Source of the DNA: Vicinamibacteria bacterium
Lineage (GTDB): Bacteria > Acidobacteriota > Vicinamibacteria > Fen-336
Length of the DNA stretch: 46,558 bases
NCBI GenBank assembly: GCA_016934575.1
Contig: JAFGSN010000065.1
Span: forward strand, 1 to 46,558
Reading direction: 5' to 3'
Both the position numbers and the translations under genes were made by a program. The notes under the pieces were generated by a model. That model was not told the origin of the DNA, searched no databases, and saw only the letters and a list, made by a program, of their open reading frames with translations. Of this stretch, positions 3,071 to 10,882 are shown in pieces. How positions within the stretch are numbered: position 1 is the first letter of the stretch; the number at the start of each line of letters is the position of its first letter.

Positions 3071-3910
3071 TCAGCCGAGAAAGTACTTCAGACAACAGAT
3101 CAGCGTGGCCTTGAGATCACGCCGGTCGACGATCAGATCGATCATGCCATGATCGAGGAGAAACTCGGAGCGCTGAAAACCGGGCGGCAGTTTCTGGCGA
3201 ATCGTCTGCTCGATCACTCTTGGACCGGCGAAACCGATCAACGCGTTCGGCTCGGCGATGTTCAGATCCCCCAACATGGCGTAGGATGCCGTCACCCCTC
3301 CCGTTGTTGGATCGGTGAGCACGCTGATGAACGGGACCCCCGCCTCGTCCAGATGAGCGAGCGCCGCCGAGATCTTGGCCATCTGCATCAGGGAAAGCGC
3401 GCCTTCCATCATGCGAGCGCCGCCGGAGCAAGAAACGACGATCAACGGCAGCCGCTCATGCGCCGCCTTCTCCACGGCCCGCGCCACCTTCTCGCCGACG
3501 ACCACGCCCATCGATCCGCCGATGAAGGCGTACTCCATGGATGCGATGATGGCGCGCATGCCGCCCATCTCTCCCAGCGCGGAAATCAGCGCATCGCACG
3601 AGTTCGTGCGCGCGCGTCCATGCTTGAGACGCGCGGCATAAGGCTTGGTGTCGACGAAGCGCAGCGGATCGGAGCTCACGAGGCCGCGATCGAACTCCGT
3701 CCACGGGCCGTTGAAAAGGAGCGCCAGTCGTTCGCGAGCCGAGATGCGGAAATGAAAGCCGCACTTGGGGCAGACGTTCTGATTCCGTACGACCTCTTTG
3801 CGATAGATGATTTCCTTGCAGGATCCGCACCTGACCCACAAGCCTTCGGGAATGCGGCTCTCCTGCCCTCCGGAAATCAACGGACTCGGTTCTCGTCTAA
3901 ACCATGACAT
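3071..3910 (-). CDS. accD: acetyl-CoA carboxylase carboxyltransferase subunit beta
   Basis: Beta subunit of the carboxyltransferase half of acetyl-CoA carboxylase. With AccA it transfers CO2 from biotin-BCCP to acetyl-CoA, the first committed step of fatty acid synthesis. The 279-residue product begins MSWFRRE and carries the N-terminal zinc ribbon (CGSC ... CPKC), then the crotonase-fold core with EKVARAVEKA, SCSGGARMMEG, LTDPTTGGVTASYAMLGD and GFAGPRVIEQTIRQ, all hallmarks of AccD. Length is normal. The frame is open for 73 more codons upstream, but these run through a terminator hairpin and do not look like AccD. No clear Shine-Dalgarno precedes the ATG, which follows an A/U-rich leader. 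accA and folC are not in the window. Confidence 0.96.
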   Translation of the reverse strand: MSWFRREPSPLISGGQESRIPEGLWVRCGSCKEIIYRKEVVRNQNVCPKCGFHFRISARERLALLFNGPWTEFDRGLVSSDPLRFVDTKPYAARLKHGRARTNSCDALISALGEMGGMRAIIASMEYAFIGGSMGVVVGEKVARAVEKAAHERLPLIVVSCSGGARMMEGALSLMQMAKISAALAHLDEAGVPFISVLTDPTTGGVTASYAMLGDLNIAEPNALIGFAGPRVIEQTIRQKLPPGFQRSEFLLDHGMIDLIVDRRDLKATLICCLKYFLG

Positions 3911-3949
3911 TTTTAAAAAACACACGCGCTCTTCACGAGCGTGACGCCG

Positions 3950-3978
3950 ATCGTACCAGTCGCAGCCCGGCGGGACAA
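3950..3978 (-). promoter_or_regulatory. candidate promoter for accD
   Basis: On the minus strand TTGTCC (3973-3978), a 17-nt spacer and TACGAT (3950-3955), with TGG just before the -10 giving an extended -10 element. Predicted initiation is about 33 nt upstream of the accD ATG. It sits directly after the terminator of the upstream kinase transcript, consistent with accD being transcribed separately. Confidence 0.45.
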
Positions 3979-4000
3979 CCGGGAGACACGACGTCGTAAA

Positions 4001-4041
4001 ACGAGAAAAAGGACGCCGGGACGAGGCGAATCGCCCCGGCG
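4001..4041 (-). terminator. rho-independent terminator after the kinase/coiled-coil operon
   Basis: A 7-bp stem CGCCGGG/CCCGGCG (4014-4020 with 4035-4041) encloses a smaller GCG/CGC stem. Read leftward on the minus strand it is followed by CCTTTTTCTCGTTTT. The hairpin and T-rich tract fit an intrinsic terminator ending the leftward transcript of the kinase and the 76-residue protein before accD. Confidence 0.65.
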
Positions 4042-4068
4042 AGCCTCGATCGGCCGTTTCGGCCTGCC

Positions 4069-4299
4069 CTACTCTGACGGAGTCTCGTCTTCTTTCTCGA
4101 GGTCGTTTTCGATGCCGAGTATCCGACAAGCGCCGTCATAGATCTGCTTCGCGGCGTTCTTGGCGTTCTGGAGCTCCGCGAGTCGCTCCTTGACCCGGGC
4201 TAGTTCCTCCTCGATCTGACGATTGAGATCGCTGATCTGTTTACGGGTCACGTCCAGCGTCTGTTGATAAAACTGCAACTGTTCCTTGCCGATCGCCAT
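4069..4299 (-). CDS. small coiled-coil protein of unknown function
   Basis: A 76-residue acidic protein, almost entirely predicted coiled coil (residues about 5-60, heptads around QISDLNRQIEEELARVKERL), with no signal peptide or membrane segment. It has a very strong ribosome-binding site (AGGAGG, about 7 nt upstream). Its start lies only 17 nt after the Ser/Thr kinase stop codon, so the two genes are almost certainly one operon. It may be an adaptor, scaffold or substrate of the kinase; that is inference from position. No family is recognised. Confidence 0.75.
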   Translation of the reverse strand: MAIGKEQLQFYQQTLDVTRKQISDLNRQIEEELARVKERLAELQNAKNAAKQIYDGACRILGIENDLEKEDETPSE

Positions 4300-4316
4300 G
4301 CTGATTCCTCCTCAAG

Positions 4317-6044
4317 TCATTTTATCCCAAGCCGCCTCAATAGTTTCTTGACAGACGTCTGTTCATCGAGCGGCTTGGCCGGCCGAGGCGCGGCGGGCGT
4401 GGAATGCGCTTCGAATTCCATCTCCAGCCGGGATTCACGGCCATCCGGAGTCTCGATCGGCTCATCCGCGGGCTGCGGCGCGCCGCGCTCCCGCTCGTCG
4501 AAAAGCACCGTCATGAAGCGGGCCAACTCGGCCATGGTCGGAGGCTGCGGTCGCTCATACAGGACCCGATCGAGGTCTTTGTACATCTCGCCCGCTTCCT
4601 GATAGCGGCTCTCCGGATCGCGCGCGAGAGCCTTCAGGACGATCCGCTCGATGCGGTCGGGGATACGCGGGTTGAACATCGTGGGCTGAGCGATGTCGCA
4701 CTGACGCACGACTTCGAGAATGCCCGCCTGTGAGCCGCCCATGAAGGGCTTCTGCTCCGTGAGCATTTCGTAAAAGATCAGACCCAGGGAAAAAATGTCC
4801 GAGCGGCGGTCCATCGGCTTGCCCCAGGCTTGCTCGGGACTCATGTAAAGCAGCTTGCCGCGAAGAGCGCCGCTGTCGGTCGTGCGCGCCTTGGCGGCCG
4901 CCCTGGCGATGCCGAAATCCGTCAGCTTCACTTCTCCTTCGAACGAGATCAGGATGTTCTGCGGGCTGACGTCGCGGTGAACGATCAGCAGCGCGCGTCC
5001 GTCGTCGTCACGCTTGCGGTGCGCGTACTCCAAAGCCTGGCAGACGCGGCTGACGATGAACACCGTGAGATCGAGCGGAATGCGCATCCCGCGTTCCTGC
5101 GTGCGGCGCACGATCGTCCGCAGGTCGCGGCCGTGGACGTGTTCCATGGCGATGAAGTACGCCTTGCCGATACGTCCCAGGTCGAAGATCTGCACGATGT
5201 TCGGATGGTTGAGACCGGCGACCATCTTGGCCTCGTTGACGAACATCTCCACGAATTCCTGGTTGTCGGAAAGGTGATTCAGAATGCGCTTGACCGCCAG
5301 CACTTTTTCGAAACCTTCGACTCCCGTCCGCTTGGCGCGATAGACCTCCGCCATGCCCCCCGTAGCGATCTTTTCGAGAAGACGGTAGGGACCGAAGATG
5401 TGGTCGGCGCTGGGCGCTGCGCGCACGGAACGTTGAGAGCGGGGGGATGGGCCGAGAGCCTCCTCGACGACCGCCGCGAGGTCGAGGGCGGATTCGTCCG
5501 GTTCGGGAGGCGTCAAGGCATGGAAGCGAACGCCAGGCCGCTTGACGCGTGAGCGGCTGGCGCGCCGATCGTCCCTTCGTCGTGAGCCGTCGCTCGGCGG
5601 CGGAGGCGAGGGATCCCATTGCGGCGAAGTGGCGGCGGACTCGAGCAGTGAAACGAGCGAATCCGACGTGTCGGCAGCGCCGGCTTCCGTTGCTTGATCT
5701 TCCACGAACGGGACGATCGGGCCGGATTCATCCGGAGCCGGATCCAGAGAATCGCTCCGAGGCCCTTCTCCAAGCGCGTCAAGGAGCTTCGCCATGTCTT
5801 GAGGGAGCGCGATTTCGCCGGATGCTTCGCCGTTCGAAGCGCCCTTCGAGTCATTCACTTGAACTCGAATCGGACCGTGACGGGATGACGCGCCTCGACT
5901 CGAGTCCGGGCTAGGAGCGTCCACGAGATCGCCAAACAGGTCGTCGGACGTGTAGAGCGGCTCATCCGTCGCCGACACGGACGAAGGCGCCTCGATGGAT
6001 GCCTTCGAGGACGAACGGCGCGCTCGTCTTGGTCCTGGACTCAT
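4317..6044 (-). CDS. cytosolic Hanks-type Ser/Thr protein kinase
   Basis: A PknB-like eukaryotic-type protein kinase of 575 residues. Residues 1 to about 215 are low-complexity and acidic/Ser-Pro-rich, probably disordered. The kinase domain spans about 218-490: glycine loop KIATGGMAEVY, ATP-binding lysine K252 (AVKRI), catalytic HRD with D358 (VHRDVSPQN), metal-binding D376 (TDFGIAR) and the MSPEQ activation-segment end. All key residues are present, so it should be active. The tail (about 490-575) is again Pro/Glu-rich, and there is no transmembrane segment, unlike classical PknB sensors. GGAGA precedes the ATG. It is divergent from the solenoid kinase gene and co-transcribed with the small coiled-coil gene. 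Confidence 0.92.
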   Translation of the reverse strand: MSPGPRRARRSSSKASIEAPSSVSATDEPLYTSDDLFGDLVDAPSPDSSRGASSRHGPIRVQVNDSKGASNGEASGEIALPQDMAKLLDALGEGPRSDSLDPAPDESGPIVPFVEDQATEAGAADTSDSLVSLLESAATSPQWDPSPPPPSDGSRRRDDRRASRSRVKRPGVRFHALTPPEPDESALDLAAVVEEALGPSPRSQRSVRAAPSADHIFGPYRLLEKIATGGMAEVYRAKRTGVEGFEKVLAVKRILNHLSDNQEFVEMFVNEAKMVAGLNHPNIVQIFDLGRIGKAYFIAMEHVHGRDLRTIVRRTQERGMRIPLDLTVFIVSRVCQALEYAHRKRDDDGRALLIVHRDVSPQNILISFEGEVKLTDFGIARAAAKARTTDSGALRGKLLYMSPEQAWGKPMDRRSDIFSLGLIFYEMLTEQKPFMGGSQAGILEVVRQCDIAQPTMFNPRIPDRIERIVLKALARDPESRYQEAGEMYKDLDRVLYERPQPPTMAELARFMTVLFDERERGAPQPADEPIETPDGRESRLEMEFEAHSTPAAPRPAKPLDEQTSVKKLLRRLGIK

Positions 6045-6248: not shown

Positions 6249-9200
6249 ATGGATTTCCTGATCTCCCGGTTATATCAGCTTCTGGCGCATCCGTATATTC
6301 CATGGTTAATTCTTTTACTCACGCTGCTTGTCATCTATCAGAAGCTCCTGCCCCGTTTGCGTATGCGCATGCCGGGTATGAATCTGAGCGCTCAAGGCCT
6401 GCTCGAGAAGCTGGCGGGAAGCCGTTATACGGAAATCAAGCTCGAAGCCGCGGTCAAGCGCGAGAAAAAGAATGGCAATACTCTGGCTGCCGGCCGGCTA
6501 TATGAAGAAGCGGGTCGGCCGAATCAGGCTGTCGAAGTGTATCTCGAAGGGCAGGAATTCATCGCGGCGGCCGTGGTGATCGAGAAAATGGGACGCGTCG
6601 AACGCGCGGCCGACCTGTACTTGCAGGCGGGCGACTACAAGAAAGCAGCGGCATTGTACGTTCAGGCCGGCAAGGCGGCGCGTGCCGCCGCGCTTTTCCA
6701 GGAACGCGGCAATAACGTCGACGCCGCGCGGCTCTATGCTCAAGCCGGTCACTGGGATAAGTCCGCCGACCTCTACGAGAAGAGCGGCTACGCCCACAAA
6801 GCGGCGGAATCGTATGAAAAGAAAGGCGATTTTCATAAGGCCGCGGAATGCTGGGAACGTCATTTCATGGAAAACGTCACCTTTTCGACGACGTATTCCT
6901 CGACCGCGGTGACTCCCGAACAGAAGAGCGCGCTGTATTCGGGACGCCTTTTCGAGAAAGCCGGCGATCTGGAACGCGCCTTCCAGATCTATGAACGGGG
7001 GAGTTATTTCCGTGAGGCGGCCAACGTCGCCATGGCCCAACAACGGTACTCCAAAGCCGCGGAGTACTTCATGCGCGCGGAAGACGCGGCAAGCGCCGCC
7101 AACGCTTTCGACCAAGCGGGAGATCCCGTCAAGGCCGCCAACCTGCGTGGAGAAGTCGCCCTTAAGGAGGATCGCGTCGCCGAGGCCGCGCGTCATTTCC
7201 AGGAAGGACAGGATTACCTGCGATCAGCGGAGCTATTTGAATCCATCGACATGCTGGCGGAAGCGGCCGCGGCTTACGAGGTCGGCGAAAGCTTCGCCGC
7301 GGCGGGCTCGGTCTATGTTCGCGCCGGCTTGAAAGAGCGCGCCGCCGGGAGCTATGAAAAAGCAGGCGATCTCGAGACCGCGGCCAAGCTCTACGAAGAA
7401 GCGGGGCTGGGGCGCAAGTCGATGGATCTGTACGCGCGCGCCGGACAGAGTTTCAAGAGCGGAGAGGCGGCGGCGAAATCCGGCGATCGAGAGAAGGCCG
7501 TCGCATTACTCCAGAAAGTGCCGCCATCAGATGACAACTACCGCCGCGCCACGGAGTTGCTGGCCGAGATCTTTATCAGAAACAGCCAGCCGGATCTGGC
7601 CATCGAGCGTCTGCAGAAGGTCATCGCCAACGAAAGCATCTCGCAGACGAACATGGACCTCTTCTACTGGCTCGCGGCGGCGTACGAATCCGCGGGTCAG
7701 GGCGAGTCGGCGCTCGACCTCTATCGCAAGATACTGGCCGAAGATCTTCAATACCGGGACGTTCCTCAAAGGCTGAGGAGGCTGGAGTCGGGCGCTTCCG
7801 AACCCGCCGGTGCGGTTGATCGCATCGGCAAGTACCTGCTCCAAGACAAGATCGGGCAGGGAGCCATGGGCGAGGTCTATCGCGCGCGCGACCCCATCCT
7901 GAACCGCGACGTGGCGCTCAAGGTCATCACGGCCAATCTGGCCGCGGATCCCGAGTTGCAGGCTCGCTTCCGTATCGAAGCCCAATCGGCCGCCCAATTG
8001 AATCATCCCAACATCATCACGGTATATGACTTCGGCGAGGAAGGCGGCAAGGCTTTTCTGGCCACCGAGCTGCTTGAGGGAATCGACCTCCGGCGACTCA
8101 TCGGCAAACCGGCGATGCGGGATCTGGATCGCGTCCTCTTCATCGTGGAACAGATCTGCGACGGTCTCGCGTACGCGCATTCGAAAAACGTCGTGCATCG
8201 CGATCTCAAGCCCGGCAACATCCACATCCTTCCCTCCGGCCGCGTCAAGATCCTTGATTTCGGCCTCGCGCGGCTCGGCGCGTCAGAGATAACTCAAGCC
8301 GGACAGATACTGGGAACTCCGCACTACATGGCTCCCGAGCAAGCGATGAGCGGCGCCATCGATCACCGCGCGGATCTCTTCACCCTCGGCAGCGTGCTCT
8401 ATGAGATGCTTGTCGGCCGCAAGGCTTTCGAGGCTGAATCCCTGCCGGGCGTCATGAACTCCGTGCTCACCGAAAACCCGGAACCTCCGTCTTCCAGGCG
8501 ACCCGACATTCCCGTGATCGTGGATGAGCTGGTTCGGAAGGCGCTGGCCAAGGATCCCGCAAGCCGATTCCAGAACGCGGCGGAGATGAAAGCCGCGGCG
8601 GGCGCCGCGCGGCGAGCGCTGGCGGCGGCGCCTGGCGCCGCGCCCGCACAGGCCCAACGCGTCCAGCCAACGGCCCCGCCGGTTGCTCCATTTCGAGACG
8701 CGTCAGAGAGTGCTCCGAGCCCGCCACCCGAGCAACCCGTCGTTGTTACGGCGACACCCGCGGCGCGCTTCCTGCGCCGCGATGAAGTCGGTCGCGGTCC
8801 TCTCGGCGTTGTCTATCGGGGCGAGGATCAAAAAAGCGGCCGTATCGTCGCCCTCCGGTTCTTGCCCGCCGAGTTGCTCGAGCCCGAAGGAACGCTGAAG
8901 GCGGTGGTCGATGACCTGCGTTCGGCTTCCCAAGTATCCCATCCCCACCTGGCTAAAGTGCTCGGCTTCATAGAAATGGACGGTCAACACTGCGTGGTCA
9001 GCGAGCTCGTGCCGGGCAGAGACTTCGCGCAAGCGCTCGCCGCGAAGCAACGCCTGCCGATGGTGCAGATTCTGGCGCTTGGTAAAGTCCTGGCCCAGAC
9101 TTTGTCCGCAATCCATGGTCAGGGCATGATTCACGGCTCGATCCAGCCTTCGAACGTGATGATCGCCTCCGGAATCGTCAAGCTCGTCGACCTGGGATTG

Positions 9201-9488
9201 GGCCGACTCGCGCATTCGTTGAAGCGCTCCCCGAGCTATCGCGCGCCGGAGAACCGGCTCGACGTCGCCGGCGACCTTTTCGCCCTTGCAACCGTTCTAT
9301 ACCATTTGCTCACCGGCATGCACCCGACATCACAGCAAACGCCGCAGGTGCCCGGCAGAATCGTGCCTGGAGTGCCTCCGGCGTTCGACCAGCTCATCTT
9401 CCAGAACCTTCAACCATCGCCTGCGGTTCGCTCGACCACCGCGGAGGAGTTCCTTAAAATCCTGTCTCGCACGGTGATGTCGAGATGA
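6249..9488 (+). CDS. membrane-anchored helical-repeat Ser/Thr kinase with C-terminal pseudokinase
   Basis: A 1079-residue protein. Residues about 15-35 form one N-terminal transmembrane segment. Residues 81-206 and 231-416 are tandem 13-residue repeats with consensus A-A-x-L-Y-x-x-A-G-D-x-x-K, an alpha-solenoid related to TPRs but with unusually short helices. Residues about 417-515 look like ordinary TPRs. Residues about 525-790 are a complete Hanks kinase: glycine loop KIGQGAMGEVYRA, K558, catalytic D652 in VHRDLKPGN, D670 in LDFGLARLG, and APEQ. After a Pro/Ala-rich linker, residues about 830-1079 are a second kinase fold that lacks the ATP lysine (R870) and the catalytic aspartate (HGS at 962-964), though DLG (981-983) remains. 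The start is supported by GAGAG upstream. The stop overlaps the next gene (ATGA). Substrates are unknown. Confidence 0.9.
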   Translation: MDFLISRLYQLLAHPYIPWLILLLTLLVIYQKLLPRLRMRMPGMNLSAQGLLEKLAGSRYTEIKLEAAVKREKKNGNTLAAGRLYEEAGRPNQAVEVYLEGQEFIAAAVVIEKMGRVERAADLYLQAGDYKKAAALYVQAGKAARAAALFQERGNNVDAARLYAQAGHWDKSADLYEKSGYAHKAAESYEKKGDFHKAAECWERHFMENVTFSTTYSSTAVTPEQKSALYSGRLFEKAGDLERAFQIYERGSYFREAANVAMAQQRYSKAAEYFMRAEDAASAANAFDQAGDPVKAANLRGEVALKEDRVAEAARHFQEGQDYLRSAELFESIDMLAEAAAAYEVGESFAAAGSVYVRAGLKERAAGSYEKAGDLETAAKLYEEAGLGRKSMDLYARAGQSFKSGEAAAKSGDREKAVALLQKVPPSDDNYRRATELLAEIFIRNSQPDLAIERLQKVIANESISQTNMDLFYWLAAAYESAGQGESALDLYRKILAEDLQYRDVPQRLRRLESGASEPAGAVDRIGKYLLQDKIGQGAMGEVYRARDPILNRDVALKVITANLAADPELQARFRIEAQSAAQLNHPNIITVYDFGEEGGKAFLATELLEGIDLRRLIGKPAMRDLDRVLFIVEQICDGLAYAHSKNVVHRDLKPGNIHILPSGRVKILDFGLARLGASEITQAGQILGTPHYMAPEQAMSGAIDHRADLFTLGSVLYEMLVGRKAFEAESLPGVMNSVLTENPEPPSSRRPDIPVIVDELVRKALAKDPASRFQNAAEMKAAAGAARRALAAAPGAAPAQAQRVQPTAPPVAPFRDASESAPSPPPEQPVVVTATPAARFLRRDEVGRGPLGVVYRGEDQKSGRIVALRFLPAELLEPEGTLKAVVDDLRSASQVSHPHLAKVLGFIEMDGQHCVVSELVPGRDFAQALAAKQRLPMVQILALGKVLAQTLSAIHGQGMIHGSIQPSNVMIASGIVKLVDLGLGRLAHSLKRSPSYRAPENRLDVAGDLFALATVLYHLLTGMHPTSQQTPQVPGRIVPGVPPAFDQLIFQNLQPSPAVRSTTAEEFLKILSRTVMSR

Positions 9489-10132
9489 CGTGCGGTCTTT
9501 GCGGCAGTCGCAAGGGAAGACGATACTGCCCCGCCGGCCAGAAAAGAATCTGTCCCACGTGCTGCGGATCCAAACGTATCGTGGAAATCAACTGCCCGGA
9601 CGACTGCGTCTATATTAAAGGAGGCCGCGCGGCCGCCTGGGAAGGACGCGTGACCGAGAAAAGGCGTGACGAGCGACGAGTCGCCGTCATCTATACCGAT
9701 CTGAGCGACGCCCAATGCCGCTTGGCCAATAAGACGCTTGTTGGATTGCTCGCGATCCGTTCCCGTCTCCCGGATATCGACGATCGTCTTCTGGCATCGG
9801 CCGTGGGAATATGGCGCAAAACGATCGAAACCAGGGAGCGCGGCATTCTCTACGAGCATCAGGCTGACGACATGCGCGTACAGGTGCTCGTGTCGGCCAT
9901 CAAGGAGGTGTTCGAAGAGGAAATGAAGCGCCTCACGCACTCCGACCGCGACATGCTGGCCGTCCTGCGGGCGGTCGAGCGAAGCCTGACGCGAACGTCG
10001 ATGGAGGAGACGGACCCGCGCGCTTTCCTGGAATCGATATCACGCCTGGTCGGCCGGCTGGTGAAAGAAAATCGCGCGCGGGGCGACGACGCCCTTGACG
10101 AACCGCGAATCATCAAGCCCGACGAATGGTAG
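9485..10132 (+). CDS. cysteine-cluster (probable zinc-binding) protein of unknown function
   Basis: A 215-residue protein of unrecognised family. The N-terminal 43 residues hold eight cysteines (C3, C6, C15, C23, C26, C27, C37, C41) in CxxC-type spacing, including CPTCCG and INCPDDCVY, which suggests one or two bound zinc ions or, less likely, an iron-sulfur centre. The rest (about 55-215) is predicted helical and highly charged, with no transmembrane segment. Its ATG overlaps the stop of the solenoid kinase in an ATGA arrangement, so translation is coupled and the products are likely to work together, perhaps as kinase adaptor or substrate. It is followed 45 nt later by the bactofilin gene. 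Confidence 0.75.
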   Translation: MTCGLCGSRKGRRYCPAGQKRICPTCCGSKRIVEINCPDDCVYIKGGRAAAWEGRVTEKRRDERRVAVIYTDLSDAQCRLANKTLVGLLAIRSRLPDIDDRLLASAVGIWRKTIETRERGILYEHQADDMRVQVLVSAIKEVFEEEMKRLTHSDRDMLAVLRAVERSLTRTSMEETDPRAFLESISRLVGRLVKENRARGDDALDEPRIIKPDEW

Positions 10133-10177: not shown

Positions 10178-10882
10178 ATGCCAGTCGATGTCAAGGATAA
10201 TCTGACGCATGCCGGCGCTTGCGTGCTCGGCGAAGATGCGACGTTCACGGGTCGGCTTGAAGGTCGAGACGTCACGATACTCGGACGCTTCAAAGGAACG
10301 CTCCAGATCCTAGGACGCGTGCGGATCGGACGAAACGCGCGCGTCGAGGCCGATGTTCAGGCAGCCATGGTGGAAATCAACGGCGAGTTCGTCGGAGACG
10401 TCAAAACCCAATCTCTCGTTTTCGGCGAGACCGCGCGCGCCAGGGGCGTATTTCATGCCAAGCGGTTGGGCATGAAAGAGGGCGCCTCCGTGACGGGCTC
10501 TTTTCCGCCGGTCGAATCGGCCGTCAAGGAAAACGCCGCGCCTTTCGTCGCCGGGCGCGCCATGCCGGCCGGCAAGGGGCTTCCGAAGGAAGCGCTCGCA
10601 CCGGCGGAGACCATCGCTTTCCAGAAGCCCGCGCCTGCCGCTGCGCCGAGCGACAAGGTGAAACCCACGGATTCCGAATCCTCGAAGCCTTCGTCCTCTC
10701 CAGCCGCCATGGCGAGCGCGTCATCCAACGCCGCCGTTGTGGAGACGCAACAGCCCTCCGAAACCGTCGCCTCGACTCTGACGCAGGCCTCATCGACTGA
10801 AACGCCGCAAGTCGTTCAGAACGACAACGAGAAGCGACCGGAAGCTTCCCCTCCCCCGCCGGAGACGCCTGAAAGCCAGTGA
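10178..10882 (+). CDS. bactofilin (polymer-forming cytoskeletal protein)
   Basis: A bactofilin, which self-assembles into nucleotide-independent filaments that usually line the inner membrane and position cell-wall, polar or signalling proteins. Residues about 10-105 contain the right-handed beta-helix domain with regular turns (GEDATFTGRLEGRDVTILG, KGTLQILGRVRIGRNARVEADV, INGEFVGDV, HAKRLGMKEGASVTGSF). Residues about 110-234 are a long Ala/Pro/Ser/Glu-rich tail, longer than in simple bactofilins and probably disordered. A strong ribosome-binding site (GGGAGG) precedes the ATG. The stop overlaps the methyltransferase start (GTGA). The position behind a membrane-anchored kinase suggests the filament could localise, or be phosphorylated by, that kinase. 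Confidence 0.88.
   Translation: MPVDVKDNLTHAGACVLGEDATFTGRLEGRDVTILGRFKGTLQILGRVRIGRNARVEADVQAAMVEINGEFVGDVKTQSLVFGETARARGVFHAKRLGMKEGASVTGSFPPVESAVKENAAPFVAGRAMPAGKGLPKEALAPAETIAFQKPAPAAAPSDKVKPTDSESSKPSSSPAAMASASSNAAVVETQQPSETVASTLTQASSTETPQVVQNDNEKRPEASPPPPETPESQ

Follow-up and report, generated by a model that had tools for sequence, protein, structure and literature searches.

A 13-residue helical repeat array joined to a kinase and a putative pseudokinase in a Vicinamibacteria protein

The window analyzed here is the whole 46,558-nucleotide stretch of contig JAFGSN010000065.1 (assembly GCA_016934575.1) from a Vicinamibacteria bacterium of the phylum Acidobacteriota. It contains a gene for a large protein in which a predicted N-terminal membrane anchor precedes a solenoid of short repeats and two kinase-like domains (Table 1). 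The original prediction placed about 24 copies of a 13-residue helical repeat, in a kinase, at positions 6489-7496. These positions are right and correspond to residues 81-416 of the open reading frame 6249-9488(+), where 24 units were counted (10 + 5 + one of 17 residues + 8). The kinase was present too, but a degenerate second kinase domain and the N-terminal transmembrane segment had been overlooked. Directly after this predicted segment lies the basic stretch KLLPRLRMRM, and the positive-inside rule suggests a cytoplasmic C-terminus for the 1079-residue protein.

Table 1. Features of the solenoid kinase gene. Positions are those of the window.
Feature	Residues	Position	Strand	Basis or description
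Whole gene, open reading frame	1079 aa	6249..9488	+	Predicted TM anchor, then solenoid of 13-residue units, TPR tail, kinase and putative pseudokinase
Predicted N-terminal transmembrane segment	~11-35	6279..6353	+	Hydropathy maximum 2.14 (19-residue window at residue 11)
Array 1, ten 13-residue units	81-210	6489..6878	+	Period, alignment, array-1 model
Linker between arrays, 20 residues	211-230	6879..6938	+	Low model confidence
Array 2a, five 13-residue units	231-295	6939..7133	+	Period, alignment
Single 17-residue unit AANLRGEVALKEDRVAE	296-312	7134..7184	+	Length same in 41/42 aligned proteins
Array 2b, eight 13-residue units	313-416	7185..7496	+	Period, alignment
TPR-like C-terminal tail of solenoid	417-516	7497..7796	+	Longer helices, without the 13-residue period
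Ser/Thr protein kinase domain	527-797	7827..8639	+	Intact VALK, HRDLKPGN, DFG, APE
Putative pseudokinase domain	836-1079	8754..9485	+	VALR, HGSIQPSN, DLG

Directly downstream, a gene overlapping the kinase stop codon (9485-10132) encodes a Cys-rich protein (CGLCG...CPTCCG...CPDDC), for which no Pfam or NCBIfam family scored above cut-off. Three of six same-family relatives also have this gene next to the solenoid gene. A bactofilin gene (10178-10882), for a polymer-forming cytoskeletal protein, lies two genes downstream of the kinase gene. At 3071-6044, a gene for an accD-like acetyl-CoA carboxylase subunit adjoins another Ser/Thr kinase gene, and this order beside the solenoid gene is kept in the family of the window. 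A conserved gene neighbourhood was seen only within that family, and not in distant homologs.

The period was assayed by comparing BLOSUM62 similarity at each lag with that of the shuffled sequence. Over residues 55-520, the signal at lag 13 was far above chance (z = 10.3), with further signals at lags 26 and 39 (7.4 for both) and 52 (6.0), which confirms the predicted 13-residue period. Array 1 by itself gave z = 10.1 at lag 13 and 10.5 at lag 26, and array 2 gave 7.0 at lag 13. At lag 34, the TPR repeat length, the arrays gave no signal: z ranged from -1.1 to -2.8, and was -1.1 over residues 55-520. The tail (residues 417-520) served as an internal control: lag 13 was not among its leading lags, and lag 34 reached z = 2.6. 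Three other proteins of the same genome that matched the query had z below 2 at lag 13. The consensus unit is A-A-x-L-Y-E-K-A-G-D-Y-x-K, and the two arrays are in phase when aligned with each other, with exactly one unit gapped.

At the DNA level, Tandem Repeats Finder did not detect a 39-bp array in the array region. Moreover, the lag-13 excess of array 1 came mainly from codon positions 1 and 2 (0.47 and 0.53, with 0.34 at position 3). Therefore the 39-bp repeat is old, and a recent tandem duplication of DNA was ruled out, with no array detected and little similarity at third positions.

Conservation of the spacing was followed in an alignment of 42 proteins reaching down to about 25% identity. 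Fifteen of the 22 unit-to-unit steps were exactly 13 residues in all 42 proteins, and the remaining steps were 13 in 36 to 41 of them. In nearly all homologs the strongest period was lag 13 or one of its multiples, 26 or 39. The linker between the arrays was variable in length, mostly with 29-35 residues separating the starts of the units on either side. Among the 895 units of these proteins, position 9 was Gly in 520 (58%), position 10 was Asp or Asn in 295 (33%), and 105 of the 127 Pro were found at positions 11-12. This is the expected pattern of a C-cap, an N-cap and a helix N-terminus, and it agrees, independently, with the helix start in the predicted model described below. Splitting the units into odd and even was no better than other partitions for array 1 (fraction 0.28) and array 2a (0.60), in a low-power test with no positive control; in the same low-power test, again with no positive control, the split was borderline for array 2b (0.057). 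As this low-power test draws no clear line between odd and even units, the repeat seems to consist of one helix and not of a TPR hairpin. Given the borderline split, array 2b may hold a weak two-helix alternation.

Modelled by AlphaFold2 from its single sequence without alignment, as were all our models (a periodic single sequence may be over-regularised in this way), array 1 alone (residues 63-210) was predicted as eleven regular helices, with a pLDDT of 96.0 and a pTM of 0.81. In this model each helix begins at unit position 11 and ends at position 7 of the unit after it, giving 10-residue helices and 3-residue turns; the helix of about 9 residues and turn of 4 proposed originally are amended to these values. 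The broader proposal, a solenoid of short helices rather than a canonical TPR, was borne out, as the model shows 13-residue helix-turn units without 34-residue packing. For residues 51-516, the mean pLDDT was 81.7, and the linker and part of array 2 were low (52-64 over part). The helix-turn geometry is thus predicted confidently for array 1 only. That both arrays make up one continuous solenoid is assumed, because array 2 and the linker were modelled at lower confidence.

When the array-1 model was compared with the PDB by Foldseek, the best match was the Gemin5 dimerization domain (6RNQ/6RNS; TMq 0.69-0.72, rmsd about 4 Å), followed by IFT140 (0.64), COPI (0.54) and gamma-SNAP (0.53), whereas designed TPRs superposed poorly (0.33-0.42). 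The longer, less certain model superposed poorly throughout, with TMq up to 0.29 among the matches listed. The fold neighbours of the predicted array-1 model are protein-protein assembly scaffolds. With its stacked short helices and TPR-like structural neighbours, the predicted array-1 structure falls within the broad TPR-like alpha-solenoid superfamily, to which the solenoids of alpha/gamma-SNAP and COPI also belong; to our knowledge, these are not strict 13-residue arrays. The Gemin5 domain (Pfam TPR_GEMI5) has about 19% sequence identity and belongs to a eukaryotic RNA-binding protein of the SMN complex. It is a TPR moiety of 17 helices that forms an antiparallel canoe-shaped dimer (PMC11965781).

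Like a TPR domain, the predicted array is a solenoid of stacked, short antiparallel helices, but it repeats every 13 residues instead of 34 and seems to have one type of helix in place of clearly distinct A and B helices. Its unit motif, A-x-x-x-[YF]-x-x-A-G-[DN], resembles helix B and the following turn of the TPR consensus. The array had been expected to be masked as TPR by standard annotation. This was partly the case: Pfam labelled the region only with scattered fragments of TPR_7, SNAP, IFT140/172 and Clathrin. TPR_7 reached 49.3 bits, above its cut-off of 27.9, with its best stretch at 121-140 in array 1; TPR_2 and TPR_6 also exceeded their cut-offs, with their best stretches in the tail, and SNAP matched at 3.2e-09. 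In profile comparisons, the best or near-best sequence neighbours were the C-terminal solenoids of the IFT-A subunits (IFT144, IFT140, IFT122) and of IFT172. The array-1 profile matched IFT172 (1.5e-20) and IFT144 (4.7e-18) ahead of a designed TPR (4.8e-13), and with the array-2 profile designed TPRs ranked first. In IFT172 and IFT144, helices bearing this motif follow one another at 13-residue spacing in short ungapped runs, so the 13-residue unit has precedents in eukaryotic IFT proteins. However, in the alignments these runs extend over about three to four units and are interrupted by longer ones. IFT solenoids belong to eukaryotic cilia and are preceded by WD40 propellers, where the window protein has instead a predicted transmembrane segment, a kinase and a putative pseudokinase; no WD40 propeller was found by Pfam in the bacterial proteins scanned. 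The alpha-solenoid families covered in a review (ankyrin, ARM, HEAT, Sel1, PPR, PUF, TAL and TPR) have repeats of about 30 residues or more, and none of them uses a single short helix as its repeat (PMC11514114). No description of a 13-residue TPR-like repeat was found in the open-access literature searched. The array has a shorter, more uniform and distinct repeat unit within the TPR-like alpha-solenoid fold class.

The range of the array was assayed by profile search. At E <= 1e-15 the array-1 profile matched in 48 of 199 genomes of the phylum, about a quarter of those searched. At E <= 1e-10, 14 of 60 close relatives had a match, as did 55 of 297 phylum genomes; a tblastn search against plasmids gave no match. 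The only locus recovered by a contig scan (L056) is not a homolog, but an ordinary TPR protein beside type VI secretion-like genes. Several domains other than kinases accompany the array. Period-13 arrays were fused to cNMP-binding domains (L122, L123), UvrD-like helicases (L113, L120) and a GreA/GreB C-terminal domain (L111), were joined to multi-TM segments (L110, L121), or stood alone (L114, L115). A portable binding module would be expected to have such varied partners.

The first kinase domain retains the catalytic Lys, HRD and DFG that mark Pfam Pkinase. It shares all its motifs with the bacterial PknB-type Ser/Thr kinases, but here a predicted N-terminal transmembrane segment and the solenoid come before the kinase and a putative pseudokinase after it. 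No PASTA domains were found by Pfam in the window protein, and the PASTA kinase model (NF033483) scored 405 bits, below its cut-off of 450 and through the kinase part only. PADLOC matches were generic and confined to the kinase domain, and an anti-phage kinase was dropped as a candidate. The second domain has lost the catalytic Lys (K to R), the HRD Asp (HRD to HGS) and the DFG motif (DFG to DLG), and is probably a pseudokinase with a regulatory or docking role. Catalytic motifs varied among homologs. The three same-family relatives checked had the pseudokinase only, without an active kinase, and two relatives from another family kept HRD and lacked the DFG Asp. In two homologs the motifs of the first kinase domain were altered (severely in L075) and an active kinase domain came after it, and most of the distant homologs had one active kinase. 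Judged from these sequences, the solenoid is kept throughout but catalysis is sometimes lost, and this suggests that the core function is binding or scaffolding. In one protein (L062:3570-6830; also L011), the pseudokinase segment is doubled in near-identical copies, which may reflect a recent duplication or be an artefact of assembly.

Altogether, we consider it probable that the window protein is a membrane-tethered protein-binding scaffold controlling a kinase module. The arrays would build up an alpha-solenoid with about 24 short helices, each unit being a single 13-residue helix and turn. Each helix would bear the Ala, aromatic, Ala and Gly-Asp motif, which normal TPRs carry in their second helix and its turn; with this motif on every helix, a TPR-type protein-binding surface would be made from one kind of helix. 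The N-terminal helix would tether the protein to the inner membrane, leaving the remainder in the cytoplasm. The most likely role of the solenoid is to bind a partner protein or peptide, and we infer that this binding could position or gate the adjoining kinase, with the degenerate second kinase acting as a regulatory or docking pseudokinase.

The matches of TPR_7 and other Pfam TPR models to parts of the array, together with the designed consensus TPRs among its sequence neighbours, might suggest an ordinary 34-residue TPR domain whose spacing of 13 residues has arisen by coincidence. This is very improbable, as the arrays have no lag-34 signal, the predicted helix-turn units are 13 residues long, designed TPRs superpose poorly on them, and the spacing of 13 is fixed across homologs. 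Descent shared with the eukaryotic IFT, COPI and Gemin5 solenoids, in place of an independent TPR variant, would account for the array-1 profile ranking, the Gemin5 and IFT140 fold matches and the 13-spaced runs of IFT172 and IFT144. We consider it unlikely: the ranking is unstable, whole-chain scores sum many weak repeats, no WD40 propeller accompanied the array in the bacterial proteins scanned, and short repeats converge easily. Descent from IFT on sequence alone was set aside, the ranking of neighbours changing with the profile used.

A different reading concerns function. The solenoid could be mainly an oligomerisation device, bringing kinases together for trans-phosphorylation as Gemin5 forms dimers, and not a sensor of a partner or ligand. 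The nearest fold is indeed a dimerization domain, and kinase-pseudokinase tandems would suit dimer control. However, arrays also occur by themselves or fused to domains other than kinases, and we give this reading a rather low probability. The partner-binding scaffold is the reading that we prefer. More tentatively, the unit could be a distinct, unnamed repeat class: a true single-helix alpha-solenoid without the A/B hairpin, which one phylum would use as an all-purpose scaffold in kinases, cyclic-nucleotide sensors, helicases and membrane proteins. Such a class might also show how hairpin solenoids of the TPR and IFT type could originate from one repeated helix. A strict 13-residue unit that persisted through deep divergence would be a natural solenoid of minimal size, of use both to theories of repeat-protein origin and as a design template. 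The present labelling of the arrays as scattered fragments of known families leaves an annotation gap, which hides a widespread fused module.

Two kinds of array protein outside the kinases had features of their own. UvrD/Rep-type helicases with long 13-residue arrays are encoded at L113:2-3511 and L120:326-4477; they show weak similarity to GajB-type helicases and are possible conflict-system proteins. The GreA/GreB-type protein (L111:1385-2428) is short, and its 13-residue array is very regular.
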